From Acidobacteriota bacterium (lineage in GTDB: Bacteria; Acidobacteriota; Vicinamibacteria; Vicinamibacterales; UBA8438): a stretch of 45,936 nt of DNA. Made by a program: the position numbers and the translations under genes. Positions 2,556 through 33,103 of this stretch are shown here, in pieces. The notes below the pieces were generated by a model. That model saw only the letters and a list, made by a program, of their open reading frames with translations. It was not told the origin of the DNA and searched no databases. The stretch spans positions 1 to 45,936 of the forward strand of contig VXME01000032.1 of NCBI GenBank assembly GCA_009861545.1, written 5' to 3'. Position 1 is the stretch's first letter. The number at the start of each line of letters is the position of its first letter.

Positions 2556-3986
2556 CACCCGCTTCTTCCAACCGCCGCGCCGGAACGCGAGCACGCCCAC
2601 CACCGCCATCAGCGTCTGGCAGACCGCGACCGTCACGAACACCCCGGTTGGCCCCAGACCGGCCGGGCCCGCGAGCGTCCACGCGAGCGGGAGCTGCACC
2701 ACCCAGTAGACGAAGAAGTTGATCCACGTCGGCGTGGTCGTGTCCCCCGCCCCGTTGAACGCCAGTACGGTGACGAGGCCGAAGCCCCAGAACACGTAGC
2801 TGCAGGCCACGATGCGCAGGCAGGTGGCGGCCAGCGCCACGACCTCCGGATCGGCCGCCAGCAACCCGACGATGGGCCGGGCGAAGACCACGAAGATCAC
2901 GCCGACGATGCCCAGCAGCACCGTGTTCAGGCGCGCGGTGAACCAGACCGCGCGCTCGGCGCGATCCGGTTGGCCGGCGCCCAGGTTCTGCCCCACCAGC
3001 GTCGCGGCGGCGTTGCCGACGCCCCAGACCGGCAGCAGCACGAAGATGATGATCCGCACCGCGACCGTGTAGCCCGCCAGCACCGTGTCGCCGAACGGCG
3101 CCAGGATGCGGATGAGACCGACGAAGCTGGCGGTCCCGACCAGGTACTGCAGGATGCCGATGCCGCTGACACGGAGCAGGCGCAGCATGGTCTGCGTCTC
3201 GATGCGCACCCGCCGCCAGTCGACGGCCACGCGGCCGTTGCCGCTCGTGAGCGCCCGAAGCTGGTAGGCGACGCCCAGGCCGCGCCCCACCGTCGTCGCG
3301 ATCGCCGCCCCTTCGAGCCCGAACGCCGGGATGGGTCCCAGACCGAAGATCAGGATCGGGTCCAGCACGATGTTGACGAGGTTCGCCAGCCACAGCGCCC
3401 GCATCGCCAGCACCGGATCGCCCGCCCCGCGGAAGATGCCGTTGATCATGAACAGCAGCGTCACCGTGACGCAGCCGCCGAGCATGATCGCCGTGAAGGT
3501 CCGGCCGCTCGCCGCCAGCTCCGGCGTGGCGCCCAGCAGCACCAGCAGATCGGAGGCCCAGACGACCCCGGCCACGCCGATCGCCAACGACACCGCGCCT
3601 CCGGCGGCGATGGCCTGCACAGCGGCGGCCGCGGCGCGCTCGGGCGCCCCCTCGCCGACGCGCCGCGCCACCATCGCCGTGGCTCCCATGCTGAGACCGA
3701 TGGAGACGGCGAACACCAGGGCGATGAGCGAATCGGACAAGCCGAGAACGGCGACCGCCTCCGACCCGAGACGGCCCACGAAGTAGACGTCGACGACCGA
3801 GAACACCGACTGCATCCCCATCTCGAGGACCATCGGCACCGCCAGCAGCAGGACGGCGCGCCCGAGGCTGCCGCGGGTGTAGTCGCGGGGCACGGCGCGC
3901 ACGGCGTCGCGCACGTCGCCCCAGAGTTGCGCGTTGCGGGCCGCCAGGGTGCGGCGGCCGTTGGAAACCACGTTGACGAAAGACAT
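2550..3986 (-). CDS. MATE-family multidrug efflux transporter
   Basis: A 478-residue polytopic membrane protein with the two-lobe MATE pattern. The first half begins near GSLGRAVLLLAVPMVLEMG and contains the helix-1/2 signature VVDVYFVGRLG; the second half begins near QTMLRLLRVSGIGIL. Twelve hydrophobic helices can be counted. MATE proteins export cationic drugs or metabolites in exchange for Na+ or H+ across the inner membrane. I chose the ATG at 3986 (MSFVNVV); an in-frame ATG at 4043 would add 19 Arg/Pro-rich residues. Substrate cannot be read from sequence. Monocistronic and convergent with the small membrane protein. Confidence 0.92.
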   Translation of the reverse strand: MSFVNVVSNGRRTLAARNAQLWGDVRDAVRAVPRDYTRGSLGRAVLLLAVPMVLEMGMQSVFSVVDVYFVGRLGSEAVAVLGLSDSLIALVFAVSIGLSMGATAMVARRVGEGAPERAAAAAVQAIAAGGAVSLAIGVAGVVWASDLLVLLGATPELAASGRTFTAIMLGGCVTVTLLFMINGIFRGAGDPVLAMRALWLANLVNIVLDPILIFGLGPIPAFGLEGAAIATTVGRGLGVAYQLRALTSGNGRVAVDWRRVRIETQTMLRLLRVSGIGILQYLVGTASFVGLIRILAPFGDTVLAGYTVAVRIIIFVLLPVWGVGNAAATLVGQNLGAGQPDRAERAVWFTARLNTVLLGIVGVIFVVFARPIVGLLAADPEVVALAATCLRIVACSYVFWGFGLVTVLAFNGAGDTTTPTWINFFVYWVVQLPLAWTLAGPAGLGPTGVFVTVAVCQTLMAVVGVLAFRRGGWKKRVL

Positions 3987-5723: not shown

Positions 5724-5902
5724 CAGAGGACCCGCCGAACACGGACTCCAGTCGTTCCACCAGCACCTGGATTTCGTGGCCGGCTCTTCGACGCGCAATA
5801 GCGGATCGTCGCCGGAACGCGAGTATGATGGCGAACTGGCCCTGGACATCCCGGTCAGGTGGGATCGGCCTGAATCAGGTTGCCGACGAAACGGGGGCGA
5901 GG

Positions 5903-7633
5903 ATGAGCACGAAGACGTGGTGGACGATCTCTCGGACCCGGATATCACGGATGGGGACGCTGGCGATCCTCCTCGCCTCCCTCGCCGGCGCCGGACCCGC
6001 CGCGGCGCAGGACCGCGACTTCACGCCGGTCACCGACGCGATGCTCGCAGACCCCGATCCGGCCGACTGGATCAACTGGCGGAGAACGCTGGACGGCTGG
6101 GGCTACAGCCCCCTCGACCAGATCGACCGGGAAAACGTCCACCAGCTCGGGCTGGTCTGGTCGTGGACGATGCCCACCGGCCTGGCGCAGCCCACGCCGA
6201 TCGTCCACGACGGCGTCATGTACCTGCCGGGTCCGCTCAACGTGGTGCAGGCGCTCGACGCCGTCACCGGCGATCTCATCTGGGAGTACCGCAAGCGCTT
6301 CGAGCGCTCGCCCGACGATTCGTTCCGCGCCCGCACGCGGTCCATCGCCATCTACGACGACAAGATCTACCTGAACACCAACGACGCCCACATCGTCGCC
6401 CTCGACGCGCGGACCGGCGAGGTGGTCTGGGATCACGTGGTGGCCGACAACCGGCTCGGCTACCGCTACACGAGCGGGCCGATCATCGTCAACGGGAAGA
6501 TCGTGGCCGGCATGACCGGCTGCGAGCGCTACAAGGACGGCACCTGCTTCATCTCCGCGCATGACCCGCAGACCGGCGCCGAGCTGTGGCGCACGTCCAC
6601 CGTGGCCCAGCCGGGCGATCCGGGCGGCGACACCTGGGGGGACCTGCCGGCGATGTTCCGGGCGGGCGGCGACGCCTGGATTCCGGGCAGCTACGACCCG
6701 GCCACCAACCTGACCTTCTGGTCGACTTCGCAGGCCAAGCCGTGGGCGCGGCTGTCGCGCGGGACCGACGGCGACGCGCTCTACACGAACAGCGTTCTCG
6801 CGCTGGATCCGGACACCGGCGAGCTCGACTGGTACTACCAGTTCGTGCCGGGCGAGACGCACGATCTGGACGACGTCTTCGAGAGCGTGCTCATCGACCA
6901 CCGCGGCCGGCAGTCGCTGTTCAAGATGGGCAAGCTCGGCATCCTGTGGGAGATCGACCGGAAGACCGGCGCGTTCGTCGCCGCCCACGATCTCGGCTAC
7001 CAGACGCTGGTCGACGTCGACCCCGAGACCGGCGAGACCACCTACCGCCCGGAGATGATCCCGGAGCCCGGCGAGGAGCTGGAGTTCTGTCCCGACTTCC
7101 AGGGCATCCGCAACTGGCGCTCGTCGGCGTACCACCCCGGGACGGGAATGCTCTACATCCCGATCCACCCGACCTGCGTCAAGGGCACGTTCAGCGAGGT
7201 GGCGCGCGAGCCGCATCCGACCGGCGACCTGTACTACTACGGGAACCCGCGCTGGACCGGCTGGCAGTCGGCGGGCCGGCTGCCCCACCCGAAGAGCCCC
7301 GACCACGACGGCCACCTCGTGGCGATGGACATCGACACCGGCGAGGTGCGCTGGCGGCACTCGACCCGCCTGCGCTCCCTGGCCGCGGCCCTGACCACCG
7401 CCGGCGGCCTGGTGGTGACCGCCGACGGCGACCGCTACCTCTACATCATGGACGTGGAGACGGGCAACGTGCTGTACCGCACCCGCATGCCATCGCCGGT
7501 GCAGGGCTTCCCCATCACCTACGCGGTCGACGGCCGGCAGTACCTGGCCATCCCGGTCGGCGGCGGCCGGGTGCCCGGGGCGCCGAACGCGATGTACGTG
7601 TTCGCCATGCCTGAAGATGACCAGGGTCCGTAG
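5903..7633 (+). CDS. Exported quinoprotein-type (PQQ-ADH-like) beta-propeller dehydrogenase
   Basis: A 576-residue protein from the ATG at 5903, preceded by a purine-rich GGGGGCGAGG. A signal peptide ends near AAAQ (about residue 36). The rest is an eight-bladed quinoprotein propeller with repeated W-motif elements (ALDARTGEVVWD, ALDPDTGELDWYYQ, AMDIDTGEVRWRH). It resembles PQQ alcohol dehydrogenases, but the segment that holds the Ca-binding Asn in methanol dehydrogenases (GTGNP) reads STSQAKPW (274-281). Two cysteines in TGCERYKDGTC (C207, C215) are shared with the paralogue at 20421. No haem CxxCH is present. Probably a periplasmic alcohol or sugar oxidase; whether it binds PQQ is open. 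It is monocistronic as far as I can see. Confidence 0.82.
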   Translation: MSTKTWWTISRTRISRMGTLAILLASLAGAGPAAAQDRDFTPVTDAMLADPDPADWINWRRTLDGWGYSPLDQIDRENVHQLGLVWSWTMPTGLAQPTPIVHDGVMYLPGPLNVVQALDAVTGDLIWEYRKRFERSPDDSFRARTRSIAIYDDKIYLNTNDAHIVALDARTGEVVWDHVVADNRLGYRYTSGPIIVNGKIVAGMTGCERYKDGTCFISAHDPQTGAELWRTSTVAQPGDPGGDTWGDLPAMFRAGGDAWIPGSYDPATNLTFWSTSQAKPWARLSRGTDGDALYTNSVLALDPDTGELDWYYQFVPGETHDLDDVFESVLIDHRGRQSLFKMGKLGILWEIDRKTGAFVAAHDLGYQTLVDVDPETGETTYRPEMIPEPGEELEFCPDFQGIRNWRSSAYHPGTGMLYIPIHPTCVKGTFSEVAREPHPTGDLYYYGNPRWTGWQSAGRLPHPKSPDHDGHLVAMDIDTGEVRWRHSTRLRSLAAALTTAGGLVVTADGDRYLYIMDVETGNVLYRTRMPSPVQGFPITYAVDGRQYLAIPVGGGRVPGAPNAMYVFAMPEDDQGP

Positions 7634-7789
7634 CAGTCCATAGACTGCCGGTATTCCCCGGTTTTATTGGCGCATCTTGCAGTATGCATCCAGAGGCCGC
7701 ACGGGTCCTCAACGGCTGGGCCACGCAACCGAACGGTGCTGCCGGATGAACCGTCCGAGTGTGCTGGCGTTGCCGCAAGGGCCTGGCAG

Positions 7790-8228
7790 CTGTGGCTGTC
7801 TACGCGCGACATTGTCAGGCAACGCCTCACCGCAGTGGCCGGAAGGCCGCAGCGGCGCCTCCGCCGCTCGGCCCTGTTGCCCCCGTTCGAGGTGCACGTC
7901 AAGCCGGTGGGCGTCCCGCAACCGGACTACGGCGCGCGGCACGGCGCCGCTCTGGTGCTGATCGTAGAGCCGGGGCGCCATCAGCGTGTCGGTCCGGGCC
8001 TGGTGGCCACGACGCTGGGGCTGACGCCGGGGGAGAGTCAGGTGGCGGTCTGGCCTGGCGGAAGGCAGAAGCGTGCGGGACATGGCCGAGGCGACCGCGC
8101 ACACGCAAGGCGCCATCTACTGGCACCTGAAGGAGATCTACCGGAAGCAGTCCATCTCGCGGCAGGTGGACCTGGGACGGTTGGTGTCGCTCGCCGAGTT
8201 CGGTGATCGCTCGGACCCTCGACGCTGA
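7790..8228 (+). pseudogene. Frameshifted LuxR-type helix-turn-helix regulator remnant
   Basis: One frame reads LLPPFEVHVKPVGVPQPDYG from about 7877 to GLTPGESQVAVW ending at 8053. Homology then continues one base later, from 8055, as LAEGRSVRDMAEATAHTQGA and YWHLKEIYRKQSISRQVDL to a TGA at 8226-8228. Together they form a LuxR-family DNA-binding domain (LTPxExxVxxWLAEG...IYWHLKxIYxK). The single extra C at 8054 breaks the gene. No convincing start or N-terminal domain is visible upstream. Either a true decaying gene or a base-call error; the lack of a recognisable N-terminus favours decay. Confidence 0.65.
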
Positions 8229-8570
8229 AGCGCGCCGTGGCCCGCCGCGATACCAATTCTGGTATTCAACGGCGTAAGGGTCCGCCCCTCTATCCCATGG
8301 TTGCATGGCATTACATCGCTATGTGGCCGGAATTAGTACGCTCGGCGTCGTCGATGCCGCACAGGCAAACTTGACAAACGCCAGCGGGAGTGCGAGAAAA
8401 GGCCCGGCGCGCGGATCGGGAACCACCGCCAGGACCGCCAGGAAGTCTCCGGGCTGACGCCGGATCAGTAGTGACAACTCGAGGAGGAAGAAAGCTATCC
8501 TGAACCGGTGGAGACCGGCTTCGGGGCCAGATTCCGAAAAGGACTGCACTGACCAGGGGACTGACAGATC
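8229..8570. other. Non-coding or decayed stretch
   Basis: I see no supported gene in these ~340 bases. There is a small inverted repeat (ATACCA-N4-TGGTAT, 8250-8265) just after the LuxR remnant. A TTGACA at 8371 has no matching -10 hexamer at normal spacing. Base composition is slightly less GC-rich than the neighbours. Together with the broken genes on both sides it reads as degraded sequence. Confidence 0.4.
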
Positions 8571-8816
8571 ATGCAACACACACATCGTTCGCTCGTGGCG
8601 GTTGCGGTTCGCCTGGGGTTGCTGACAGGCCTGTGGGCGGCGCCGCCATCGGCGCAAGGAGCGCCCTGGATTGCCGAACCAGGGACCGGTAGCGTCAGCT
8701 TTTCGTTCGTGAGGCAATTCACCGACTTCGGTGGGACCTCGGCACGGCCTTCATGCGCCCGCGCAGTCTGACGTATGCACTGTCGCGTCTCGGCGTGTAC
8801 TACGCGCCACGGTGAG
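8571..8816 (+). pseudogene. Truncated exported-protein gene fragment
   Basis: An ATG at 8571 opens a frame with a plausible signal peptide (hydrophobic run VRLGLLTGLWAAPP, then SAQGAPW) and the mature start APWIAEPGTGSVSFSFVRQF, which looks like the N-terminus of an outer-membrane beta-barrel. It stops after only 66 residues at 8771. A second frame continues to 8816 with SLTYALSRLGVYYAPR, suggesting the rest was lost by deletion and frameshift. I cannot name the intact protein. It lies immediately before the halogenase operon and may be a former upstream gene. Confidence 0.4.
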
Positions 8817-8827
8817 GGAAAGCGACA

Positions 8828-9784
8828 GTGACCGGTCGCATCGTCGGGGCAGCCCGGAACATCCCGAACGTCGGGCCATGCGAGACGGCGAATCCGTGGG
8901 AAGTACCCTCGCCGCTCGCGACGGGCGCGGTGGACATGACCGACGGGAGTCGCATCATACTGCGGCGGCACGGCAACCCGGACGGTCCACGGCTCGTGCT
9001 GAGCCACGGCAACGGGCTGGCGATCGATCTGTACTACCCTTTCTGGTCACTGCTCGCAGAGCGATTCGATCTCGTCCTGTATGACCTCCGAAACCACGGC
9101 TGGAACCCGCCGAGCGACATTCGAAGCCACAACATTCCGACCTTCGTTTCCGACAACGAGCACGTCTTCAGGGGCATCGACCGGTACTTCGGGAAGAAAT
9201 CCGGGATCGGCGTCTTTCATTCGCTGTCGGCGGTGGCGGCGCTCAACCACGAGCCCCCGGGAGAAGGGTTGGCGGCCCTTGTTCTCTTCGATCCGCCGAT
9301 CTGCCCGCCCAGCGGCGACCCACTCGAGCTCGACGCCCTGTGGAAGAAGTGCGGCATCATCACGCGGCTGCGCCAGGAACGGTTCGAGACGCGCGAGGAG
9401 CTCGCGGACAACATCCGCCGCACGCCGGCGTTCGCCCGTCTGGCGCCCGGCGTAGCGGATCTCTTCGCGCAGACGACACTCCGCCACGCATCCGACGGCA
9501 CGGGCTACCAACTTCGTTGTCCGCGCGCGTGCGAGGCCCGGGTGTTCGAGTACATCTTCGCCTACAACTTCGAGCCCGAGACGAGCGGTTTCGCTTGTCC
9601 GGTCAAGGTGGTCGGAGGAGACCCGACCGCGGGTTACTCATTCCTTCCGAGCATGAACCTGCGTGGCATCGCCGGCCTCGACTACGACTTCGTGCCGGAG
9701 ACGACTCATTTCCTCCAGCTCGAGGACCCGGAGGCGTGCGTCGCCAGGATGCTGGAGTTTCTCGAGCGCCAGGGACTCGCATGA
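8828..9784 (+). CDS. Alpha/beta hydrolase of the halogenase operon
   Basis: A 318-residue alpha/beta hydrolase. Visible elements: oxyanion strand LVLSHGNGLAID (about 57-67), a nucleophile elbow in the atypical form FHSLSAV (Ser132 where others have GxSxG), the acidic segment VVGGDP, and the catalytic His in PETTHFLQLED near the C-terminus. It could act as a thioesterase, lactonase or ester hydrolase. The GTG at 8828 is the first usable start; a later ATG at 8936 would still keep the core. It is the first gene of a run of six closely spaced same-strand genes, so I infer a release or tailoring step for the carrier-bound product. No signal peptide. Confidence 0.8.
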   Translation: MTGRIVGAARNIPNVGPCETANPWEVPSPLATGAVDMTDGSRIILRRHGNPDGPRLVLSHGNGLAIDLYYPFWSLLAERFDLVLYDLRNHGWNPPSDIRSHNIPTFVSDNEHVFRGIDRYFGKKSGIGVFHSLSAVAALNHEPPGEGLAALVLFDPPICPPSGDPLELDALWKKCGIITRLRQERFETREELADNIRRTPAFARLAPGVADLFAQTTLRHASDGTGYQLRCPRACEARVFEYIFAYNFEPETSGFACPVKVVGGDPTAGYSFLPSMNLRGIAGLDYDFVPETTHFLQLEDPEACVARMLEFLERQGLA

Positions 9785-9838
9785 ACCGGGGCCGCTCGTT
9801 CGGGCCACAGGGGGGCGCCGCCGAGCGGAACAAGGCTG

Positions 9839-11185
9839 ATGGAACACATCGACTGGCAGTTGCAACGCTTCGGAGAAGGCGCGGATCGTGCGGCCATCAT
9901 CTGGCGCGATCGCGCCTGCGACTACTCCGAGCTGACCGATCGCTACCGGCAGTGGCTCGGCCGACTGGAGGCGGCGGGCGTGCGCCCGGGCGATTCGGTA
10001 GGCGTGCTCAGCGACTTCTCGCCGGGCGCCGTGTCGTGCCTGCTGGCGTTGCTGAAGATGCGGTGCGTACTCGTGCCCCTTGCGTGGGAGTCGCGCGATC
10101 AGCACCAGGCCTTCTTCAGGACGGGCGAGCTGGATCACCGCGTGGAGATTGACGACCAGGACCAGGGTGTGGTTACCAGGATGGAGGAGCACCGCCGCAA
10201 CCACCCATTGATGGAGCGACTGCGGACGGCGGGCAAGGCGGGACTGGTGCTCTTCAGTTCCGGCTCCACCGGTAAGCCGAAGGCGATTCTGCACAGCCTG
10301 CCGGAGCTGCTCAACAAGTTCCGCAAGCCCCGGCACTGCTACCGGACGCTGACGTTTCTCCTGTTCGATCACATCGGCGGATTCAACACGCTGTTCTACA
10401 CCCTGGCCAACCTCGGCTGCGTGGTGGCGGCGGCCGGTCGCAGCGTCCCCAGCGTGTGCGAGGTCATCGAAAGGCACCGGGTGGAGCTGCTGCCGACCTC
10501 GCCGACGTTCCTGAACCTCATGCTGCTGTCGGGGGCGCACAAGTCGTACGACCTCTCGTCGCTCAAGTTGATCACCTACGGTACCGAGGTCATGCCGGAG
10601 CGCACGCTCAGGATGGCCAACGCGGCGTTTCCGAAGACCCGTTTCCTGCAGACCTACGGCCTCAGCGAGCTCGGCATTCTGCGCTCGAAGTCGGAGTCCG
10701 ACGAGTCGCTGCGGGTCAGGATCGGCGGCGAGGACTACGAGACCCGCGTCACGGACGGCAGACTGCGGATCCGCGCGCAGTCGTCGATGCTGGGGTATCT
10801 GAATGCGCCCAGCCCCTTCGACGAGGACGGCTGGTTCGACACCGGAGACTCGGTGCTCCGCGAGGGTGACTACTATCGGATCCTGGGACGGCAGTCGGAC
10901 ATCATCAACGTTGGCGGCCAGAAGGTATACCCCGCCGAGGTCGAGCAGGTAATCGCCGAAATGCACGGGATCATCGACGTGTCGGTGAAGGGCGAGCAAC
11001 ACCTGCTGATGGGCCAGGTGGTCACCGCCACCGTACAGGTGGCGGAACCCGTGCCGGCCGTGCAGATGCGGAAGCGAATCGCCGAGCATTGCAGGGGACG
11101 CCTGCAGCCTTTCATGATCCCGGTGAAGGTCAAGGTGGCCACCGAGGGACAGGTGAACTACCGGTTCAAGAAGATCCGGCGATAG
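9839..11185 (+). CDS. Acyl-AMP ligase / adenylate-forming enzyme (ANL superfamily)
   Basis: A compact 448-residue adenylation enzyme with all core motifs: the phosphate loop LFSSGSTGKPK (138-148), TYGLSELG (272-279), GWFDTGD (331-337), GRQSDIINVGGQKVYPAEVE (350-369) and a C-terminal Lys in YRFKKIRR. It activates a carboxylic acid as acyl-AMP and passes it to CoA or, more likely here, to the carrier protein encoded two genes downstream. It is shorter than usual (about 500-550 residues), mostly in the N-terminal subdomain. The substrate cannot be deduced by eye. It follows the hydrolase by 54 bases and precedes the halogenase by 18. Confidence 0.87.
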   Translation: MEHIDWQLQRFGEGADRAAIIWRDRACDYSELTDRYRQWLGRLEAAGVRPGDSVGVLSDFSPGAVSCLLALLKMRCVLVPLAWESRDQHQAFFRTGELDHRVEIDDQDQGVVTRMEEHRRNHPLMERLRTAGKAGLVLFSSGSTGKPKAILHSLPELLNKFRKPRHCYRTLTFLLFDHIGGFNTLFYTLANLGCVVAAAGRSVPSVCEVIERHRVELLPTSPTFLNLMLLSGAHKSYDLSSLKLITYGTEVMPERTLRMANAAFPKTRFLQTYGLSELGILRSKSESDESLRVRIGGEDYETRVTDGRLRIRAQSSMLGYLNAPSPFDEDGWFDTGDSVLREGDYYRILGRQSDIINVGGQKVYPAEVEQVIAEMHGIIDVSVKGEQHLLMGQVVTATVQVAEPVPAVQMRKRIAEHCRGRLQPFMIPVKVKVATEGQVNYRFKKIRR

Positions 11186-11203
11186 AGGAGCGAGTCGTCC
11201 GTC

Positions 11204-12928
11204 ATGGCGAAGAACACGCGCAGACCGGTCGTTGTCGTCGGCGGCGGACCCGCCGGCAGTGTCGCCGCGCTCTGTCTCCGGAAACTGGGACATGACGTGG
11301 TCGTGCTCGAGCGGGAGAAGTTCCCCCGCTACCGACTGGGCGAATCGCTGCTGCCCGGGACCATGTCGATCCTGACCCGGCTCGGGGTGATGGACCGCAT
11401 CGAGGCCGCGAACTTCGTCAAGAAACGGGCTGCGACGTTCATCTGGGGCCCGGAGCAGGCCCCCTGGACTTTCACCTTCGCGACGCCGAAGACCGCGCCC
11501 TGGGTCCACGACCACGCCTACCAGGTGACGCGCGCCGAGTTCGATCAGATCCTGCTGGACGCCGCGCGCGAGCGCGGCGCCGACGTCCGCGAAGCGCACG
11601 AGGTCACCGGGATTCGGACGGACGGCGAGGGCGGTCCCGTGGCCGTGAGCTGGAAGAACGGCGCATCGAGCGGGACGCTGGAAGGCGACTTCATCATCGA
11701 CGCCTCGGGGTCGCGCGGAATCGTCGCCACGAAGCTCAAGATGCGGCGGTTCGACCGGTACTTCCAGAACATGGCCGTGTGGTCCTACTACAAGGGCGGC
11801 AAACGGTTCGAGGGCGACCTGGAAGGCAACATCTTCTCGGTGACGTTCACGGAAGGCTGGATCTGGATCATTCCCCTGAAGGACGACGTCTACAGCGTGG
11901 GGGTGGTGACCGACAAGTCGGCGAGCGCCCGCATGCGCGACGTCGGGATCGAGACGTTCTACCGGGAGTGCCTGGAGATGTGTCCCCTGGCGATGGAGAT
12001 CCTGGAGAGCGCCACCCGCTGCGAGGAGGTGCGGGTGATACGCGAGTGGGCGTACGACGCCTCGTCGCTGTCGCTCGGCCGCGCCTTCCTGTGCGGCGAC
12101 TCGGCCTGCTTCATCGACCCGCTGTTCTCGCAGGGCGTGCATCTGGCGACCTACTCGGCGATGCTGGCCGCCGCGGGCATCGATCATCTGTACCGCAACC
12201 CGCAGGACGCGGACGAGATCCGCAAGTGGTACGAGAAGTCCTACCGGGAGGCCTACAACCGCTACCACGAATTCCTGGCCGCCTTCTATTCCGCCAACTC
12301 CGCGCTCGATTCGACGTTCTGGCGGAAGCGCAAGATCGCCGGCGCGGAAGACAGCCGCTTCGCCGGCAAGGAGTGGTTCACCGCACTGTCCGGCCAGCAA
12401 GTGGAGGCCGGCGCGCGGGGCGTCGACGAACTCGAAGCGCGTGCGGCGACCCTGGCTGACCTGTGGCAGCACAGCAGGAACGAGGTCACCGACCAGTTCG
12501 ACGAGACCGAGCTCTCGCTGCGCCGCCTGCGCTGGGCCGGCCAACTGATGAAAGAGTTCAGGCGGATGGCCCGGATCACCTGGGTGTCGGACGAGGTGCG
12601 GCTGGTGCCGTCCTTCAAGGTCCATCCGACCTCGTTCGCGCTCGAGCGCCAGCAGTTCATCGCCGACGAACATGGGCGCGCCATGACCGCTTATGCCCTC
12701 ACGGAAGAACACCGCCGGCTCTTCGAGAGCCTGAAGAGCCAGCCGCTGAGCTATACGGCGCTGGCCGGCAGGCTGAAGGCGCTTGCCGGCCAGGGCACGC
12801 CGGTGCAGGTCATCGGTCGCCTGACCGAGAACGGCTTCCTGCGGGGATTCGACAAGAACGGCGATCCGGTGAAGATTCGCGCCGCCCTGCGCTTCGGTGG
12901 GGTCGGGGCCGAGGACGACATCTCCTGA
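11204..12928 (+). CDS. Flavin-dependent halogenase
   Basis: A 574-residue FAD protein. Motifs: GGGPAGS (13-19) for FAD, the halogenase hallmark W-x-W-x-I-P as WIWIIP (219-224), and CGDSACFIDPLFSQGVHLA (297-315), typical of phenol/pyrrole and carrier-protein-dependent halogenases. Lys73/Lys74 in FVKKRAATFIWG is a candidate for the catalytic Lys that binds hypohalite. About 90 C-terminal residues (TEEHRRLFESLKSQPLSYTA onward, ending VIGRLTENGFLRG) look like a winged-helix-type extension. The enzyme would chlorinate or brominate an electron-rich substrate using FADH2 from an unlinked flavin reductase; none is encoded here. The adjacent carrier protein (27 bases downstream) favours a tethered substrate. 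Non-halogenating relatives exist, but WxWxIP argues for halogenase. Confidence 0.86.
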   Translation: MAKNTRRPVVVVGGGPAGSVAALCLRKLGHDVVVLEREKFPRYRLGESLLPGTMSILTRLGVMDRIEAANFVKKRAATFIWGPEQAPWTFTFATPKTAPWVHDHAYQVTRAEFDQILLDAARERGADVREAHEVTGIRTDGEGGPVAVSWKNGASSGTLEGDFIIDASGSRGIVATKLKMRRFDRYFQNMAVWSYYKGGKRFEGDLEGNIFSVTFTEGWIWIIPLKDDVYSVGVVTDKSASARMRDVGIETFYRECLEMCPLAMEILESATRCEEVRVIREWAYDASSLSLGRAFLCGDSACFIDPLFSQGVHLATYSAMLAAAGIDHLYRNPQDADEIRKWYEKSYREAYNRYHEFLAAFYSANSALDSTFWRKRKIAGAEDSRFAGKEWFTALSGQQVEAGARGVDELEARAATLADLWQHSRNEVTDQFDETELSLRRLRWAGQLMKEFRRMARITWVSDEVRLVPSFKVHPTSFALERQQFIADEHGRAMTAYALTEEHRRLFESLKSQPLSYTALAGRLKALAGQGTPVQVIGRLTENGFLRGFDKNGDPVKIRAALRFGGVGAEDDIS

Positions 12929-12955
12929 CGAAGCCGGCGCCACGGTGGGGAGAAC

Positions 12956-13300
12956 ATGCAGAAAACCGATCTGATCGAGATGATGACCGCGCTGCTGGTC
13001 GACGCGCTGAAGGAAGAGGGCTGGGACGATCCCGGGCGGGCCGGGGCGGGCGCGCCGCTGTTGGGGAGCGACGCCGTGCTCAGCTCCATCGGCCTGGTCA
13101 CCTTCATCACCGGCGTCGAGTCGGTCCTGGAGGAAGAGTACGAGGTGGAAGTGACACTGGTGAGCGAGGAGGCGTTCTCGCGCCGGCAGAGTCCCTTCCG
13201 CACGATCGACACGCTGGCGGACTACATACTTGAATTGTCCGGCGACGCGACGAACGATGCCGTGCAGGAAGCGTCAGCGAGCAGGCCGACCAGCCGATGA
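12956..13300 (+). CDS. Acyl carrier protein
   Basis: A 114-residue carrier protein. The core reads LLGSDAVLSSIGLVTFI, then an acidic helix VESVLEEEYEVEV and SPFRTIDTLADYI, the usual helix pattern for this carrier type. The phosphopantetheine attachment site is Ser44 in SSIGLV; the Asp that normally precedes it (DSL/DSI) is Ser43 here. The protein is acidic, with an extra C-terminal tail of about 18 residues rich in Ala/Ser/Thr. It would carry the substrate activated by the upstream ligase. Its stop overlaps the next start as ATGA, so it is coupled to the SDR gene. The modification is inferred; a phosphopantetheinyl transferase is not in the window. Confidence 0.85.
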   Translation: MQKTDLIEMMTALLVDALKEEGWDDPGRAGAGAPLLGSDAVLSSIGLVTFITGVESVLEEEYEVEVTLVSEEAFSRRQSPFRTIDTLADYILELSGDATNDAVQEASASRPTSR

Positions 13301-14013
13301 ATAGCGGACCGTGCCCGGTAGCCCTGGTGACCGGGGCTCGAAGAGGGATCGGCAGGGCCCTGGCCGAGCATCTGCTCGACCGCGGGTACCGGGTGGTCGG
13401 CTGTAGCCGTCTGGACGCGGACTGGACGGCCGAGGGCTTCTTCCACCTGCGGACCGACGTGGCCGACGAGCGGCAGGTCAAGGCGCTGTTTCGCGAGGTC
13501 AAGCGACGCTACGGCCGTCTGGACGCGGCGATCAACAACGCGGCAGTAACCTCGATGAACCATGTTCTGCTGACGCCGGCGGCTTCCGTCGAGAAGATGA
13601 TGAGCGCCAACGTCGTCGGCACGTTCCTGGTCAGTCGCGAAGCCGCAAAGCTGATGCAGAGGCGGGAGTACGGGCGCATCGTGAACTTCAGCTCGCTGGC
13701 CGTACCCATGCGTCTGGGCGGTCAGTCGGCCTACGTCGCGTCCAAGGCCTCGGTGGAGAGCCTGTCGCAGGTCATGGCCCGGGAGTTGGCGGAGTACGGC
13801 ATCACCGTGAACGTGATCGGCCCGTCCCCAATCGAGACCGACATGATCCGCGGGTTGTCGAAGGACAAGGTCGATCACCTCCTCGACGCGATGGCGGTCA
13901 AGCGGATGGGAACCTTCGCCGACGTCGCCAACGTCCTGGACTTCTTCCTGCGCCCGGAGAGCGATGCGGTGACCGGACAGGTGATATATCTCGGCGGAAT
14001 TCCCAACCTCTGA
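13297..14013 (+). CDS. SDR reductase, FabG-like (3-ketoacyl-ACP reductase type)
   Basis: A 238-residue classical short-chain dehydrogenase. Cofactor motif TGARRGIG (12-19), NNAA (80-83), catalytic Ser132/133, Tyr146 and Lys150 in SSLAVPMRLGGQSAYVASK, and the late IGPSPIETDMI segment. FabG-like enzymes reduce beta-ketoacyl groups on carrier proteins with NADPH. Translationally coupled to the carrier-protein gene by ATGA, which strongly suggests it acts on the carrier-bound intermediate. Because there is no ketosynthase nearby, the keto group would have to come with the substrate or from primary metabolism; alternatively it works as a dehydrogenase. Cytoplasmic. Confidence 0.88.
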   Translation: MNSGPCPVALVTGARRGIGRALAEHLLDRGYRVVGCSRLDADWTAEGFFHLRTDVADERQVKALFREVKRRYGRLDAAINNAAVTSMNHVLLTPAASVEKMMSANVVGTFLVSREAAKLMQRREYGRIVNFSSLAVPMRLGGQSAYVASKASVESLSQVMARELAEYGITVNVIGPSPIETDMIRGLSKDKVDHLLDAMAVKRMGTFADVANVLDFFLRPESDAVTGQVIYLGGIPNL

Positions 14014-14024
14014 TTCCGTACGGC

Positions 14025-15731
14025 TTGCCCCGCGTGCTCCACCATGCGGGCGCCCCGGAGGTGGCACTGCGCGTGCGCGGTTCCTTCAACGCGCCGGCTC
14101 TGGCCGGAGACCTGTTCGGCGGCGTGACGACGGCGGCCGTGGCTCTGCCGGTGGCGCTGGGCTTCGGCGTCGCCTCGGGGCTGGGCCCGCTCGCCGGCCT
14201 GTACGGCGCCGTGATGGTCGGATTCTTCGCGGCGGTCTTCGGCGGGGCGCCCGCACAGGTGTCGGGCACCGCCGCACCGATGGCCATCGCCACGGCGGTC
14301 GTGGTGACCCGGCACGCCGACCACCTCGCCGAAGCGTTCACCATCGTCATCCTCGCCGGGTCGATCCAGATTCTGCTGGGGGTCCTGCGGCTCGGCAGTT
14401 TTGTCGCCTACACGCCGTACTCGGTAGTCTCAGGGTTCATGTCCGGCATCGGCATCATCATCGTCGTCATGCAGGGAGCGCCCATGCTCGGTGCCGCGAC
14501 CGCGCCGGGAAGAGCCCTCGACACGATCCGGTCATGGCCCGACGCGGTGGCCGCCGTCAACCCGGACGCTGTCGCGGTGGCCGCCGTGGCGCTGGCGGTG
14601 AGCTGTGGTTGGCCCCGCAGAATCCGCCGGTTTCTGCCCGCGCCGCTGGCTGCCCTGATCATCGGCAGCCTGGCCGCCTCGCTCTGGTTCGGCGACGCCC
14701 CCGTCCTCGGGGCGACGGTGTCCGGCCCGCCCAGCTTCGAGACGCCCGCGTTCTCCCTCGACTTCGTCGCCAGCGCCCTGCAACCGGCGTTCATACTCGC
14801 CCTCATCGGCTCCGTCAACAGCCTGCTCACCCTGCTGGTGACCGACTCGCTGACCCGCAGGCGTCACAATCCCAACCGCGAGCTGGTGGGGCAGGGGATC
14901 GGCAACATCGCGGCCGGACTGATCGGCGGCCTGCCCGGCGCAGGATCCCCCCCGCTCACCGTGCTGAACATCAGCGCGGGCGGCAGGACCGCGCTCGCAG
15001 GCGTCGTGCGCACCGCCGTCCTGCTGGCGCTGGCCCTCGGGATGGGCCGGATCGCCGAACCTGTCCCGCAGGCGGTCCTCGCGGGCATTCTGGCGAAAGT
15101 CGGCTGGGACACGATCGACTGGCGCTTTCTGACCCGGATCCGCCGGATCGGACGCAGCTACGCCGTGGTGATGCTGATCACGCTCGTCCTCACCGTGTTC
15201 GTGGATCTCGTCACCGCCGTGGCGCTCGGCTTCATCGCCGCGGCCATCGCGCAGGCGCGGGATGCCGAGCGCCTGGAGCTGGACGGCGTCGTCTCCGCGC
15301 CGCTGCTCGACCAGTCGTTCCTCCCGGACGGGAAGGGCGCGGGCGAGCTCGACCCCTACATGGCCCGCGTCGGTCTCGTGGTGCTGCGGGGCCGCTTCTC
15401 CGTCGCCTCCGCCAACGCGCTGGCGCGCGTCGTCGGGGCGGACATCCGCGAGCACGATGTCGTGATCTTCGATTTCTCGTCCACCACTCACATGGACGAC
15501 AGCGCAGCGTTGATCATGGAACAGCTTATCGGCATCGCCGCCGAGGACGGGACGGCTTGCATCGTGATGAATCTCTCCGACCCGGTCGCCGGCGCCCTGC
15601 AATCGCTCGACGTGCTCAGGCGCGTCCCCAAGCATCATATCGTCGACAGCCTGGACGAGGCGAGGCGCGCGGCGAAACGCGTCCTCGACACCAGAGACCG
15701 GTCGCATGCGCCGAGCCGATCGGTGACCTGA
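14025..15731 (+). CDS. SulP-family anion transporter with STAS domain
   Basis: A 568-residue membrane protein. Early motif LAGDLFGGVTTAAVALPVAL and LGPLAGLYGAVMVGFFAAVFGG are typical of SulP carriers; about 10-12 hydrophobic helices follow, then a cytoplasmic STAS domain (about residues 440-550) with DVVIFDFSSTTHMDDSAAL. SulP proteins move sulfate, bicarbonate or other anions, often with Na+ or H+. The frame opens with TTG at 14025, 11 bases after the SDR stop; a GTG at 14034 is an alternative start. Its place at the end of the halogenase operon suggests anion supply (halide, sulfate or product), which is inference only. The 207 bases after it look non-coding. Confidence 0.85.
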   Translation: MPRVLHHAGAPEVALRVRGSFNAPALAGDLFGGVTTAAVALPVALGFGVASGLGPLAGLYGAVMVGFFAAVFGGAPAQVSGTAAPMAIATAVVVTRHADHLAEAFTIVILAGSIQILLGVLRLGSFVAYTPYSVVSGFMSGIGIIIVVMQGAPMLGAATAPGRALDTIRSWPDAVAAVNPDAVAVAAVALAVSCGWPRRIRRFLPAPLAALIIGSLAASLWFGDAPVLGATVSGPPSFETPAFSLDFVASALQPAFILALIGSVNSLLTLLVTDSLTRRRHNPNRELVGQGIGNIAAGLIGGLPGAGSPPLTVLNISAGGRTALAGVVRTAVLLALALGMGRIAEPVPQAVLAGILAKVGWDTIDWRFLTRIRRIGRSYAVVMLITLVLTVFVDLVTAVALGFIAAAIAQARDAERLELDGVVSAPLLDQSFLPDGKGAGELDPYMARVGLVVLRGRFSVASANALARVVGADIREHDVVIFDFSSTTHMDDSAALIMEQLIGIAAEDGTACIVMNLSDPVAGALQSLDVLRRVPKHHIVDSLDEARRAAKRVLDTRDRSHAPSRSVT

Positions 15732-15938
15732 AACGCGACGCTCGCGCGCTCCACGCGAGAACTATTACGCCATCGATGAAGCCGCGCCCCGCTTCCGGCA
15801 ACTGCCCGACGGAGGTCTGGCCCACGCGACGGATCTTTACACGGCCGAGGAGGTGAGATCCTGGCCACCGAACCCGGCGCATCGATGACGTGACCGCGTT
15901 CGACCGGGACCGGGCATGAGAGTACGATCCCTTCCGGG

Positions 15939-29520: not shown

Positions 29521-29899
29521 CACATCGCTCTGGATCGACGTGCTGCGCAACGCGGACAAGCGGGGCGCGCTCGAAGCAGCGATCAGTGGAGACGATGTCT
29601 TTCTCACCCGCTTCACGCAGATCGAGCTCCTCGCGGGCGCCCCGCGCGAGGAGCAGTGGCACCGGCTGGCGACCTATCTCGACGGGCAGCGCTACCTGGA
29701 GCCCGAGCCCGACACCTGGCGGCAGGCGGCGCGGACCTTCTTCGAGCTGCACCGTCTCGGAACGCCCGCGCACAGCCCCATCGACTGCTGCATCGCCGAG
29801 ATTGCGATCGCGCACAAGGCGCTGCTGCTCCACCACGACCAGGACTTCGGACTCATCGCGGCGCTGCGCCCGCTGCAGGAACGCTGGCTGGAGCTGTAG
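29498..29899 (+). CDS. vapC: VapC-family PIN-domain toxin
   Basis: A 133-residue PIN ribonuclease with the normal acidic set: Asp8 in VDTSLWIDVL, Glu43 in QIELLAG, Asp96 in SPIDCCIAEIA and Asp114/116 in HHDQDFGLIA. VapC toxins cleave tRNA or rRNA using Mg2+. In contrast to the PIN protein at 1704, no catalytic residue is changed. It is coupled to vapB by a 23-base overlap. The 260 bases after it, up to the TonB receptor, look non-coding. Confidence 0.92.
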   Translation: MPTVLIVDTSLWIDVLRNADKRGALEAAISGDDVFLTRFTQIELLAGAPREEQWHRLATYLDGQRYLEPEPDTWRQAARTFFELHRLGTPAHSPIDCCIAEIAIAHKALLLHHDQDFGLIAALRPLQERWLEL

Positions 29900-30160
29900 T
29901 CGAGCGTTGACGCCGGCGGCAGCCACGACCCCGCCGCGGTGGCTGATCTCGTCGCCGGCGAGTCCGCGCACGCCCGCATCCTCTCTATCCGGAAGGTAGC
30001 CGAGTCGAACGGCCGAGTGGCCCGGCAGGCGCACCGACCGGGGTTGGCGTTTTCTACGCCCCCTCCCGTTCTGTACGCGCCTGCACGAAAATTCGAAACG
30101 AGCGATGATGGGTACACACGCTTCCGAACGGGAAGTTCGCTTCGGAAGGGGAGGATTGGA

Positions 30161-33103
30161 ATGCCATCGAGAGTGCTCGCATCGGGGGTCGGTCTTGCGC
30201 TGGCCCTCACGTTCGCGCCCGGTGCTTTCGGGCAGGGCCGCCAGACCGGCGCCATCGGCGGCGCCGCCGTCGATTCGCAGGGACTCTCGCTTCCCGGCGT
30301 CACCGTCACCGTGAGCTCACCGTCCCTGCAGGGGACACGAACCGCCGTCACCGACATCAACGGCAACTATTCGCTGCCGCAGCTCCCGCCGGGAGCCTAC
30401 TCGGTGGTGTTCACGCTGTCCGGCTTCGACGACGTCGAGGAGGAGGCGACCGTCCCGCTCGGCGGCGAGGTGGGCGTCAACGCCGTCCTGGCGCCGGCCG
30501 GCGTGACCGAGATGGTGCAGGTGGTGGGCGTGGTCCCGGCGGAGATCCAGACCACGGAGACCGCCTCGAACATGGTGGTCGACGAAGTGAACGCGTTGCC
30601 GATGGGCCGCTCGCCGTTCGCCATCGCCGCGGTGCAGCCCGGTTTGAATACGAACACGCCCAACGGGGGCCAGCTCGCGGTCAACGGCTCGTTCGCCTAC
30701 GACAACGTCTACCTGATCGACGGCGTGGACACGAACGACAACCTCTTCGGGACCTCGAACAGCCTCTACGTCGCCGACGCGATCGAAGAGACGCAGGTCC
30801 TCACCTCCGGAATCTCCGCCGAGTACGGGCGGTTCTCCGGCGGTGTGGTCAACGTCATCACGAAGAGCGGCGGCAACACCTTCTCGGGCAGTTGGCGGAC
30901 GAACTACGACAACCCGACCTGGGAAGGGCTCAACCCCTACGAGGTCGAGAACGAAGTGGAGCGGGAGGACGTCCTGAACCAGACGCACGAGGCGACGCTG
31001 GGAGGCCCGATCGCGCGCGACCGCCTCTGGTTCTTCACCTCGTACCGCCGGGCCCGGACCACCGACAGCGACAGCTTCGGGCAGACCGGCATCTCGTACA
31101 GCGAGCGGGCCAACAACGACCGGAACCAGATCAAGCTGACCGCGACGCTCGCGCCGGGGCACACGCTCTCCGGCCAGTACATGCGGAACTACACGGCCCA
31201 GTTCGGCCGTCCCTCGTTCTCGGCGTTCAGCATCACGCCCGACGTGCTGAACGACGCGACGCGGCCGAACGACCTGTACGTGACGACCTGGCGCGGCGGC
31301 GTCAGCCGCAACGTCTTCGCCGAGGCGCAGGTGTCGCAGAAGCGGTTCGGCTTCCGGGGGGGCGGCGGCAGCGAGACCGCCATCGGGCACTCGCCGTTCA
31401 TCACCCTGACGCAGGAGCTGGGGCACTACAACGCACCCTATTTCGATGCGACCGACCCCGAGGATCGCAACAACCTGCAGGTGACCGGCAACGTCACGTG
31501 GTACCGCGGCACCGAGCGGTTCGGTTCGCACAACGTGAAGGTCGGTTTCGAAAGCTACCGGTCCACGCGCACCGGCGGCAACTCGCAGACGTCGACCGGC
31601 TACGTCTTCGACGCCGACTACAAGGTGGACGCCAACGGCGATCCGGTCCTCGTGAACAACCGGCTGACCCCGGTGTTCTCCCCCTTCGAGTCGCTCATCG
31701 AGAACTGGATCCCCTCGCGCGGCGCGCGGATCGACATCAACACGTCGTCGTTCTTCATCAACGACAACTGGTCGCTCAACGACCACTTCTCGTTCAACCT
31801 GGGCCTGCGCGGCGAGTACGTCTCGAGCGAGGCGACGCCGGGCGACATCACGACCGTCGACACGCGGGCCATCGTTCCGCGCCTGGCCGCCTCGTACGAC
31901 CCGCTCGGCGACGGCCGCTACTCGATTCAGGCGACCTACAGCCAGTACTCCGGGAAGTACAGCGAGGCGCAGTTCGCCGAGAACACCAACGTCGGCAACC
32001 CGAGCCTGCTGCTGGGTGTCTACACCGGGCCGCCGCACGAGTGCCCGGGCCTGCCGAACGCCACCGCGCTCGACTGCCCGGGTCTCGACCCGGCCAACTA
32101 CTTCACCGTCCTGGGCCGCTTCCCGACGCAGAACGTCTTCACCGGTGAACGCCTCAATTCGCCCGTCACCGAGGAGTTCACGCTGTCGACCGGCGCCACG
32201 CTCGGCAGACGCGGGCACTTCCAGGTGACCTACGTCCGACGCCGCGCCCGCAGCTTCGTGGAGGATTACCAGGACCTGACGACGGGAACGACGGTGCTGA
32301 CGGATCCGGACACCGGGGACGAGTACGGCGAGTTCACGAACAAGTTCTACCGGAACCCCGGCGACCTGGGGGACGATCCCGACGTTCTGCAGCGGAACTA
32401 CGACGGACTGCAGTTCGAGACGCGTTACCAGTTGTTCGACGACCTGCTGCTGAACGGATCCTGGACGACCCAACTCCGCAACGAGGGGAACTTCGACGGC
32501 GAGGGCACCAACACGCCCGGCGTCTCGTCGGTCTACGGCGACTGGCCCGAGATTTCGCCGGCGGACCGGTTCTACCCCTGGGGCCGCCTCGACGACTACC
32601 AGAAGCAACGGGTGCGCGTCTGGGGCATCTATACCCTCGGCGTGGGATCGTTCGGCAATCTCGACATCGGCGCCTTCTGGCGCTACGACTCGGCGGAGAA
32701 CTACAGCCTGGCGTCGAGCAGCTTCCGCGTGACGCCGGAGCAGCAGGCGATTCTCGACGAGCTCGGCTACATCGACGGTCCGTCCTCGCGCACGCTCTAC
32801 TACTCGGACGGGCGCGGGTCCGAGCTCTACAACGGCTCCGGCCGGTTCGACCTGTCGCTGCACTACGACATCCCCGTCTGGCGGCGCCTGCGGCCGTGGG
32901 TGAAGATCGAGTGGTACAACCTGACGAACAACGACAAGCTGCTCTACTTCAACACTACGGTCCGGCCCGATTTCGACGGCCCGCTGGACGCACTCGGGAT
33001 CCCGACCGCGTACATCGAGGGAGACCGCTTCGGCGAAGCGACCGCGGCCGGCGACTACCGTTCCGCCCGGTCGTTCCTGATCGCCTGGGGCTTCCGCTTC
33101 TAG
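30161..33103 (+). CDS. TonB-dependent receptor with carboxypeptidase-like regulatory domain (Oar-like)
   Basis: A 980-residue outer-membrane receptor. Signal peptide to about residue 25 (LTFAPGAFGQ), a CarboxypepD_reg-like beta-sandwich (GAAVDSQGLSLPGVTVTV ... DINGNYSLPQLPPGAYSVVF), a plug domain with YLIDGVDTNDNLF and SAEYGRFSGGVVNVITKSGG, then a long beta-barrel ending in an aromatic (FLIAWGFRF). It is of the Oar type common in Acidobacteria. Such receptors import large or scarce molecules with TonB energy. The ATG at 30161 follows a GGGGAGG site. The Tat-exported hydrolase gene starts 36 bases downstream, pointing to uptake and processing of the same compound. Confidence 0.92.
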   Translation: MPSRVLASGVGLALALTFAPGAFGQGRQTGAIGGAAVDSQGLSLPGVTVTVSSPSLQGTRTAVTDINGNYSLPQLPPGAYSVVFTLSGFDDVEEEATVPLGGEVGVNAVLAPAGVTEMVQVVGVVPAEIQTTETASNMVVDEVNALPMGRSPFAIAAVQPGLNTNTPNGGQLAVNGSFAYDNVYLIDGVDTNDNLFGTSNSLYVADAIEETQVLTSGISAEYGRFSGGVVNVITKSGGNTFSGSWRTNYDNPTWEGLNPYEVENEVEREDVLNQTHEATLGGPIARDRLWFFTSYRRARTTDSDSFGQTGISYSERANNDRNQIKLTATLAPGHTLSGQYMRNYTAQFGRPSFSAFSITPDVLNDATRPNDLYVTTWRGGVSRNVFAEAQVSQKRFGFRGGGGSETAIGHSPFITLTQELGHYNAPYFDATDPEDRNNLQVTGNVTWYRGTERFGSHNVKVGFESYRSTRTGGNSQTSTGYVFDADYKVDANGDPVLVNNRLTPVFSPFESLIENWIPSRGARIDINTSSFFINDNWSLNDHFSFNLGLRGEYVSSEATPGDITTVDTRAIVPRLAASYDPLGDGRYSIQATYSQYSGKYSEAQFAENTNVGNPSLLLGVYTGPPHECPGLPNATALDCPGLDPANYFTVLGRFPTQNVFTGERLNSPVTEEFTLSTGATLGRRGHFQVTYVRRRARSFVEDYQDLTTGTTVLTDPDTGDEYGEFTNKFYRNPGDLGDDPDVLQRNYDGLQFETRYQLFDDLLLNGSWTTQLRNEGNFDGEGTNTPGVSSVYGDWPEISPADRFYPWGRLDDYQKQRVRVWGIYTLGVGSFGNLDIGAFWRYDSAENYSLASSSFRVTPEQQAILDELGYIDGPSSRTLYYSDGRGSELYNGSGRFDLSLHYDIPVWRRLRPWVKIEWYNLTNNDKLLYFNTTVRPDFDGPLDALGIPTAYIEGDRFGEATAAGDYRSARSFLIAWGFRF

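Follow-up and report, generated by a model that had tools for sequence, protein, structure and literature searches.

A putative stand-alone form of the chloramphenicol dichloroacyl module in a laterally transferred operon of an Acidobacteriota bacterium

What does an operon make that combines an acyl ligase, a carrier protein and a flavin-dependent halogenase with neither a ketosynthase nor a condensation domain? Six genes in a 45,936-nucleotide stretch of contig VXME01000032.1 (the window) from an Acidobacteriota bacterium of the order Vicinamibacterales raise this question. The original prediction, made from the sequence, compared the operon with the ligase-carrier-halogenase sets of the pyoluteorin and bromopyrrole pathways, envisaged a carrier-bound short acid or aromatic released by the hydrolase, and proposed looking for the gene set in other genomes and building a halogenase tree. 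Its layout was reproduced exactly on rechecking: an alpha/beta hydrolase (8828–9784; Abhydrolase_6, E 3e-11), an AMP-forming acyl ligase (9839–11185; AMP-binding, E 1e-35), the halogenase (11204–12928), a stand-alone acyl carrier protein (12956–13300), a FabG-like short-chain dehydrogenase/reductase (SDR; 13297–14013) and a SulP-family (BicA-like) anion transporter with a STAS domain (14025–15731) are all encoded on the + strand with gaps of 54, 18, 27, −4 and 11 bases. HMM searches confirmed the family calls for all of these except the carrier protein, which was recognized by an invariant serine and a four-helix model. As predicted, no ketosynthase or condensation domain was found in the six-gene operon, and none of the six genes encodes a prolyl oxidase, the acyl-CoA-dehydrogenase-like enzyme that forms pyrroles. 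Promoter and terminator scans gave results near chance.

Comparison with solved structures revealed that the halogenase is most similar to CmlS (PDB 3i3l), with 615 bits over residues 5–572 of 3i3l and 48% identity, followed by CndH (PDB 3e1t), with 301 bits over residues 9–384, whereas PltA and Mpy16 reached only ~154 bits, so that the pyoluteorin and bromopyrrole enzymes are not its nearest relatives. The protein contains the Pfam CmlS_C domain (PF22045, E 3e-29) and matched NCBIfam NF033113 (halo_ClmS) with 729 bits over 567 residues, below the 900-bit equivalog cut-off that was set for the chloramphenicol enzyme itself. The WxWxIP motif is present as WIWIIP (W219/W221), and Lys71, Glu44 and Tyr350 of CmlS are kept as K74, E47 and Y354. 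By residue numbering rather than structure, Asp277 of CmlS corresponds to E281 in the window, with the same replacement in L008–L012 and L017 and with Asp retained in L013–L015; we take Asp277, by its number, to be the residue to which flavin is reported to be covalently bound in CmlS, and the roles assumed for all four residues are those reported with the CmlS structure. In a tree of 41 halogenases, the nine sequences of the type found in the window (sponge-type) grouped as a single clade whose sister group comprised CmlS and its relatives (100/100), and a long branch (100/100) set both clades apart from 20 other halogenases. To judge from its sequence, the enzyme is a full-length CmlS relative of the aliphatic-halogenase type. 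The same genome encodes a second halogenase-like flavoprotein (G000:C42:94779-95852, locus L002; Trp_halogenase, E 3e-28) that is 36% identical to residues 6–365.

The ligase showed 39–42% identity to the ligases of every other cmlS-type quartet and 79–97% to those of sponge-type loci, and its best solved relatives by sequence are 4-chlorobenzoate-CoA and succinylbenzoate-CoA ligases. Pfam gave no match to the carrier protein. Its Ser44, the putative phosphopantetheine site, is invariant in 20 homologues, although in sponge-type carriers the Asp before it has given way to Ser, Asn or Thr, and a phosphopantetheinyl transferase (PPTase) is encoded in the genome. An AlphaFold model (pLDDT 83) predicts four helices, and Foldseek returned matches that were weak (best E 0.06) but consistent, mostly acyl and peptidyl carrier proteins, with PltL and DltC among them; model and serine together point to a carrier protein. 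Because the SDR superfamily is large, orthology of the SDR was tested in both directions. In six further genomes or records, the top match to the window SDR was the quartet SDR, with E values from 1e-51 to 1e-73 and no runner-up stronger than 1e-34, and CmlJ of Saccharothrix L018 had a single match in the window genome, the window SDR, so that the orthology is reciprocal. The SDR retains the Ser-Tyr-Lys motif, and its GCSR motif suggests NADP as the cofactor.

On sequence grounds, the ligase, carrier protein and SDR thus correspond to CmlK, CmlM and CmlJ, and the core of the operon is the cmlM-J-K-S quartet, a core to which the SDR, passed over in the original prediction, belongs. In Streptomyces venezuelae, cmlM-cmlJ-cmlK-cmlS (sven0925–0928) lie within the chloramphenicol cluster; the four genes were proposed by elimination to serve dichloroacetylation, and their roles "remain obscure" (Fernandez-Martinez et al., PMC4249514). 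A CmlS-family alignment run against 84,980 genomes, together with a plasmid search, yielded loci L006–L024 with a full CmlS-type halogenase and a partial copy in G206; the scan of genome contigs used two short patterns and was not exhaustive (S. venezuelae was not returned), and most loci came from metagenome bins. No relative was found on viral contigs. The arrangement is far beyond chance, because ligase, halogenase, carrier protein and SDR recur together on the same short stretch in every CmlS-type locus with intact surroundings.

Searches of the window genome (G000, 99% complete) returned no match to CmlP or CmlA, the CmlA search being the one backed by a positive control, the Saccharothrix genome; hidden production of chloramphenicol was rejected on these empty searches. 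In Saccharothrix L018, CmlA and a CmlP-like adenylation-reductase protein are located beside the quartet. CmlA was not found in Microbispora, Andreprevotia, S. eurythermus, S. achromogenes, WELS2, three sponge-type genomes or either Rhizobium plasmid, and S. roseolus has a 35% identical homologue elsewhere in its genome. Since CmlA is absent from most of the quartet genomes and plasmids searched, the quartet is a module of its own, and it occurs in several architectures. The sponge-type is hydrolase-K-S-M-J(-SulP); Rhizobium and some Streptomyces have M-GNAT-J-K-(hexapeptide)-S-hydrolase; and other loci show antiporter-M-J-K-S, which in L021 and L023 is followed downstream by a PPTase gene. 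In L006, L007, L017, L020, L022 and L024, a GNAT gene adjoins the carrier gene, a small serine hydrolase (PF06821 in L020) follows the halogenase and a FeeM-like N-acyltransferase is often present, making these loci candidates for a haloacyl transfer pathway. In the Streptomyces loci L019, L021 and L023, a Na+/H+ antiporter gene adjoins the cmlM-J-K-S quartet and the genome has no CmlA; these are chloramphenicol-type accessory genes without the antibiotic core. In L006, ~13 kb separate the quartet of this Rhizobium plasmid from an NRPS gene (29817–31653) that lies amid transposases.

Positions 8846–15753 (+ strand), a unit of 6.9 kb, showed 97% DNA identity to L008 and L009, whose genomes (G413 and G414) represent another genus of the same family, with homology stopping at both ends, as the junction sequences show. 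The next gene of the window, aroC, is 81–88% identical to its counterparts in G413 and G414. Neither the halogenase nor SulP was found in three congeners, and congener G432 has an empty site, joining window position 7614, the end of the PQQ-dehydrogenase gene (5820–7614), through ~41 bases to the aroC region (15922 onward), collinear on both sides, so that 7615–15921 is missing. The cassette has been laterally transferred, and recently, because the unit is 97% identical when aroC is 81–88% identical, and because of the empty site. The first five cassette genes have a G+C content of 0.65–0.67 and the neighbours 0.69–0.72, with SulP at 0.71; no direct or inverted repeats flanking the unit were found. 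Between the conserved PQQ-dehydrogenase gene and the cassette lie ~1.2 kb (7615–8845) that have no equivalent in the congener, L008 or L009. Judged by eye, this stretch contains a LuxR-type HTH remnant split by a frameshift, reading LTPGESQVAV in one frame and SVRDMAEATAHTQGAIYWHLKEIYRKQSISRQVDL in the following one, as well as another gene fragment, and it resembles an insertion scar.

More distant copies were found beyond the family. L010–L012 share window positions 9839–14013 at 81–82% identity and L013–L015 share 8899–14000 at 75–76%; their record titles name Gemmatimonadota, Latescibacterota and Gammaproteobacteria. L010–L012 fall in one GTDB phylum. L013 (titled Gammaproteobacteria) and L014 (titled Gemmatimonadetes) have 97% identical cassettes and are unlike outside them. 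The bacteria that carry the cassette are marine and probably sponge-associated; the sponge origin of the bins is deduced from isolate prefixes, as COS and RHO fit Coscinoderma and Rhopaloeides (PMC8163846), and not from the records.

The two outer genes are less constant than the quartet. The hydrolase showed 50–96% identity to six homologues, mostly located beside a quartet, and S132, D265 and H294 are invariant across them, likely forming the catalytic triad Ser132/Asp265/His294. Its GTG start at 8828 is uncertain because 8846 is where the other copies start to align, and its AlphaFold model (pLDDT 48) was left out of the evidence. Profile searches gave weak matches to cofactor-free haloperoxidases in the N-terminal part. 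A role as haloacid dehalogenase, considered for its weak N-terminal similarity to fluoroacetate dehalogenase, was rejected, the nucleophile position being Ser in all seven homologues. The hydrolase is missing next to the quartet in L012, where 8.6 kb of upstream sequence is available, and other architectures have unrelated hydrolases or GNATs instead; release by the hydrolase, as first suggested, is therefore kept as a possibility only. SulP is carried by three of 28 family genomes, those with the 97% identical unit. In a Gammaproteobacteria bin (L025), ~6 kb separate a 50% identical hydrolase (2922–3869) from a halogenase with 41% identity (10172–11584), and no ligase, carrier or SDR matches were found near this pair.

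For the chemistry and the product, we infer the following course. The operon would be a stand-alone, horizontally acquired form of the chloramphenicol dichloroacyl module, turning a small acid into a 3-ketoacyl thioester that is gem-dihalogenated at C2 and releases a dihaloacyl group, a reading that we hold with somewhat better than even confidence. The ligase would adenylate a short acid, for which acetoacetate and 3-hydroxybutyrate are the likeliest candidates, and load it onto the phosphopantetheine arm at Ser44 of the carrier. The NADP-type SDR would set the 3-keto state, making C2 acidic, and the halogenase would use FADH2, O2 and halide to generate a Lys74 haloamine or HOX and halogenate the enolate twice. 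The gem-dihalo 3-ketoacyl thioester may then lose its acyl end by C–C or thioester hydrolysis, for which the alpha/beta hydrolase, where present, is the candidate, and the dichloroacetyl or dibromoacetyl product would be released or handed to an acceptor; SulP may move halide or the product acid. The original proposal of halogenation of a small carrier-bound acid without a ketosynthase or NRPS thus probably stands, and its aromatic variant is less likely than an aliphatic dichloroacyl product, because the chloramphenicol cluster is already known to contain these four genes. More speculatively, the six genes may form a self-sufficient pathway to free dihaloacetic or a similar small gem-dihalo acid, chlorinated or, in seawater, brominated, that sponge-associated bacteria of several phyla export as a transferable trait; we consider this extended version doubtful.

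Other routes would use the same genes differently. The carrier could hand the haloacyl group to an amine whose pathway is encoded elsewhere in the genome, which would yield a haloacyl amide resembling chloramphenicol, with the hydrolase as an editing enzyme or transferase. The group ends as an amide in chloramphenicol, and the NRPS-free quartets of Rhizobium, S. achromogenes and WELS2 bear GNAT and hexapeptide transferases, but the transferred unit contains no acyltransferase, CmlH-like amidase or amine pathway and neither CmlP nor CmlA was found in the window genome, so that we regard this outcome as possible though unlikely. Slightly less probable still is chlorination of the enolate of malonyl-carrier or malonyl-CoA with decarboxylation to dichloroacetyl-carrier, the SDR acting elsewhere, for example by reducing a downstream carbonyl. 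A review proposed malonyl-CoA as the CmlS substrate, with the enolate stabilized by Tyr (PMC8407142), and this Tyr is kept as Y354; however, a malonyl thioester as sufficient substrate would leave unexplained the SDR in every other intact quartet, nearly all of them without CmlA, and malonyl-CoA as the substrate would make the ligase superfluous.

A route in which the carrier bears an aromatic group (pyrrole, benzoate or beta-tyrosine), like those to pyoluteorin, bromopyrroles or C-1027, would agree with the aryl substrates of the ligase's best solved relatives noted above and with the guess of an aromatic acid for CmlK by Piraee et al. (quoted in PMC4249514). It is improbable given a CmlS-type halogenase with CmlS_C, a transferred unit with neither a pyrrole-forming acyl-CoA dehydrogenase nor an aminomutase, and an SDR better suited to a 3-ketoacyl substrate; the halogenase family and the gene content led us to reject the pyoluteorin-type reading. 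That the halogenase is really a non-halogenating flavin monooxygenase, or the locus an assembly or binning artefact, would fit a fold common to FAD monooxygenases and the location of related copies in metagenome bins. The catalytic Lys, the WxWxIP motif and the placement in the tree argue against the former, and aligned copies in further genomes of two phyla against the latter, making either highly improbable; an assembly artefact was rejected because both insertion flanks are collinear with the empty site of the congener.

The operon matters since the source of the dichloroacetyl group of chloramphenicol is still unsettled, with gene roles described as obscure and a halogenase substrate that is only proposed (PMC4249514, PMC8407142). 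Four genes kept together on their own across several phyla, mostly without CmlA, define a minimal module, and we argue that CmlJ belongs to halo-acyl formation because the quartet stands alone in this way. With the SDR in the minimal module, the 3-ketoacyl route becomes testable with four or five small proteins. The locus also shows that a putative halogenation trait has recently passed among symbiont-type marine bacteria belonging to different genera and phyla.

Comparison with known systems places the operon most clearly. CndH, the chondrochloren halogenase, is likewise a variant-B flavin halogenase, but it matches only the N-terminal 380 residues of the window halogenase and belongs to a different pathway. 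The pyrrolyl-carrier sets (PltA with its ligase and carrier; Bmp) share the logic of ligase, carrier and variant-B flavin halogenase and differ in the distance of their halogenases (~154 bits) and in having a pyrrole-forming dehydrogenase where the window has an SDR. The NRPS-free quartets of the Rhizobium plasmids (L006, L007), Streptomyces (L020, L022, L024) and Andreprevotia (L017) have the same quartet and, save for the homologue in S. roseolus, no CmlA in the genomes and plasmids searched, but carry a GNAT, a PF06821-type serine hydrolase of another family and sometimes a hexapeptide transferase. Closest is the chloramphenicol sub-operon, in which the four genes were already known: it encodes the same four proteins, with the CmlS_C domain and catalytic residues kept and with reciprocal SDR orthology to Saccharothrix L018, where the quartet adjoins CmlA and CmlP. 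The order there is M-J-K-S and in the window K-S-M-J, the window halogenase is 48% identical with Glu281 in place of Asp277, and the window unit is without CmlP, CmlA or other core genes and without CmlT. What sets the window unit apart is the stand-alone form, to which an alpha/beta hydrolase and SulP have been added and which is laterally mobile in Gram-negative marine phyla.
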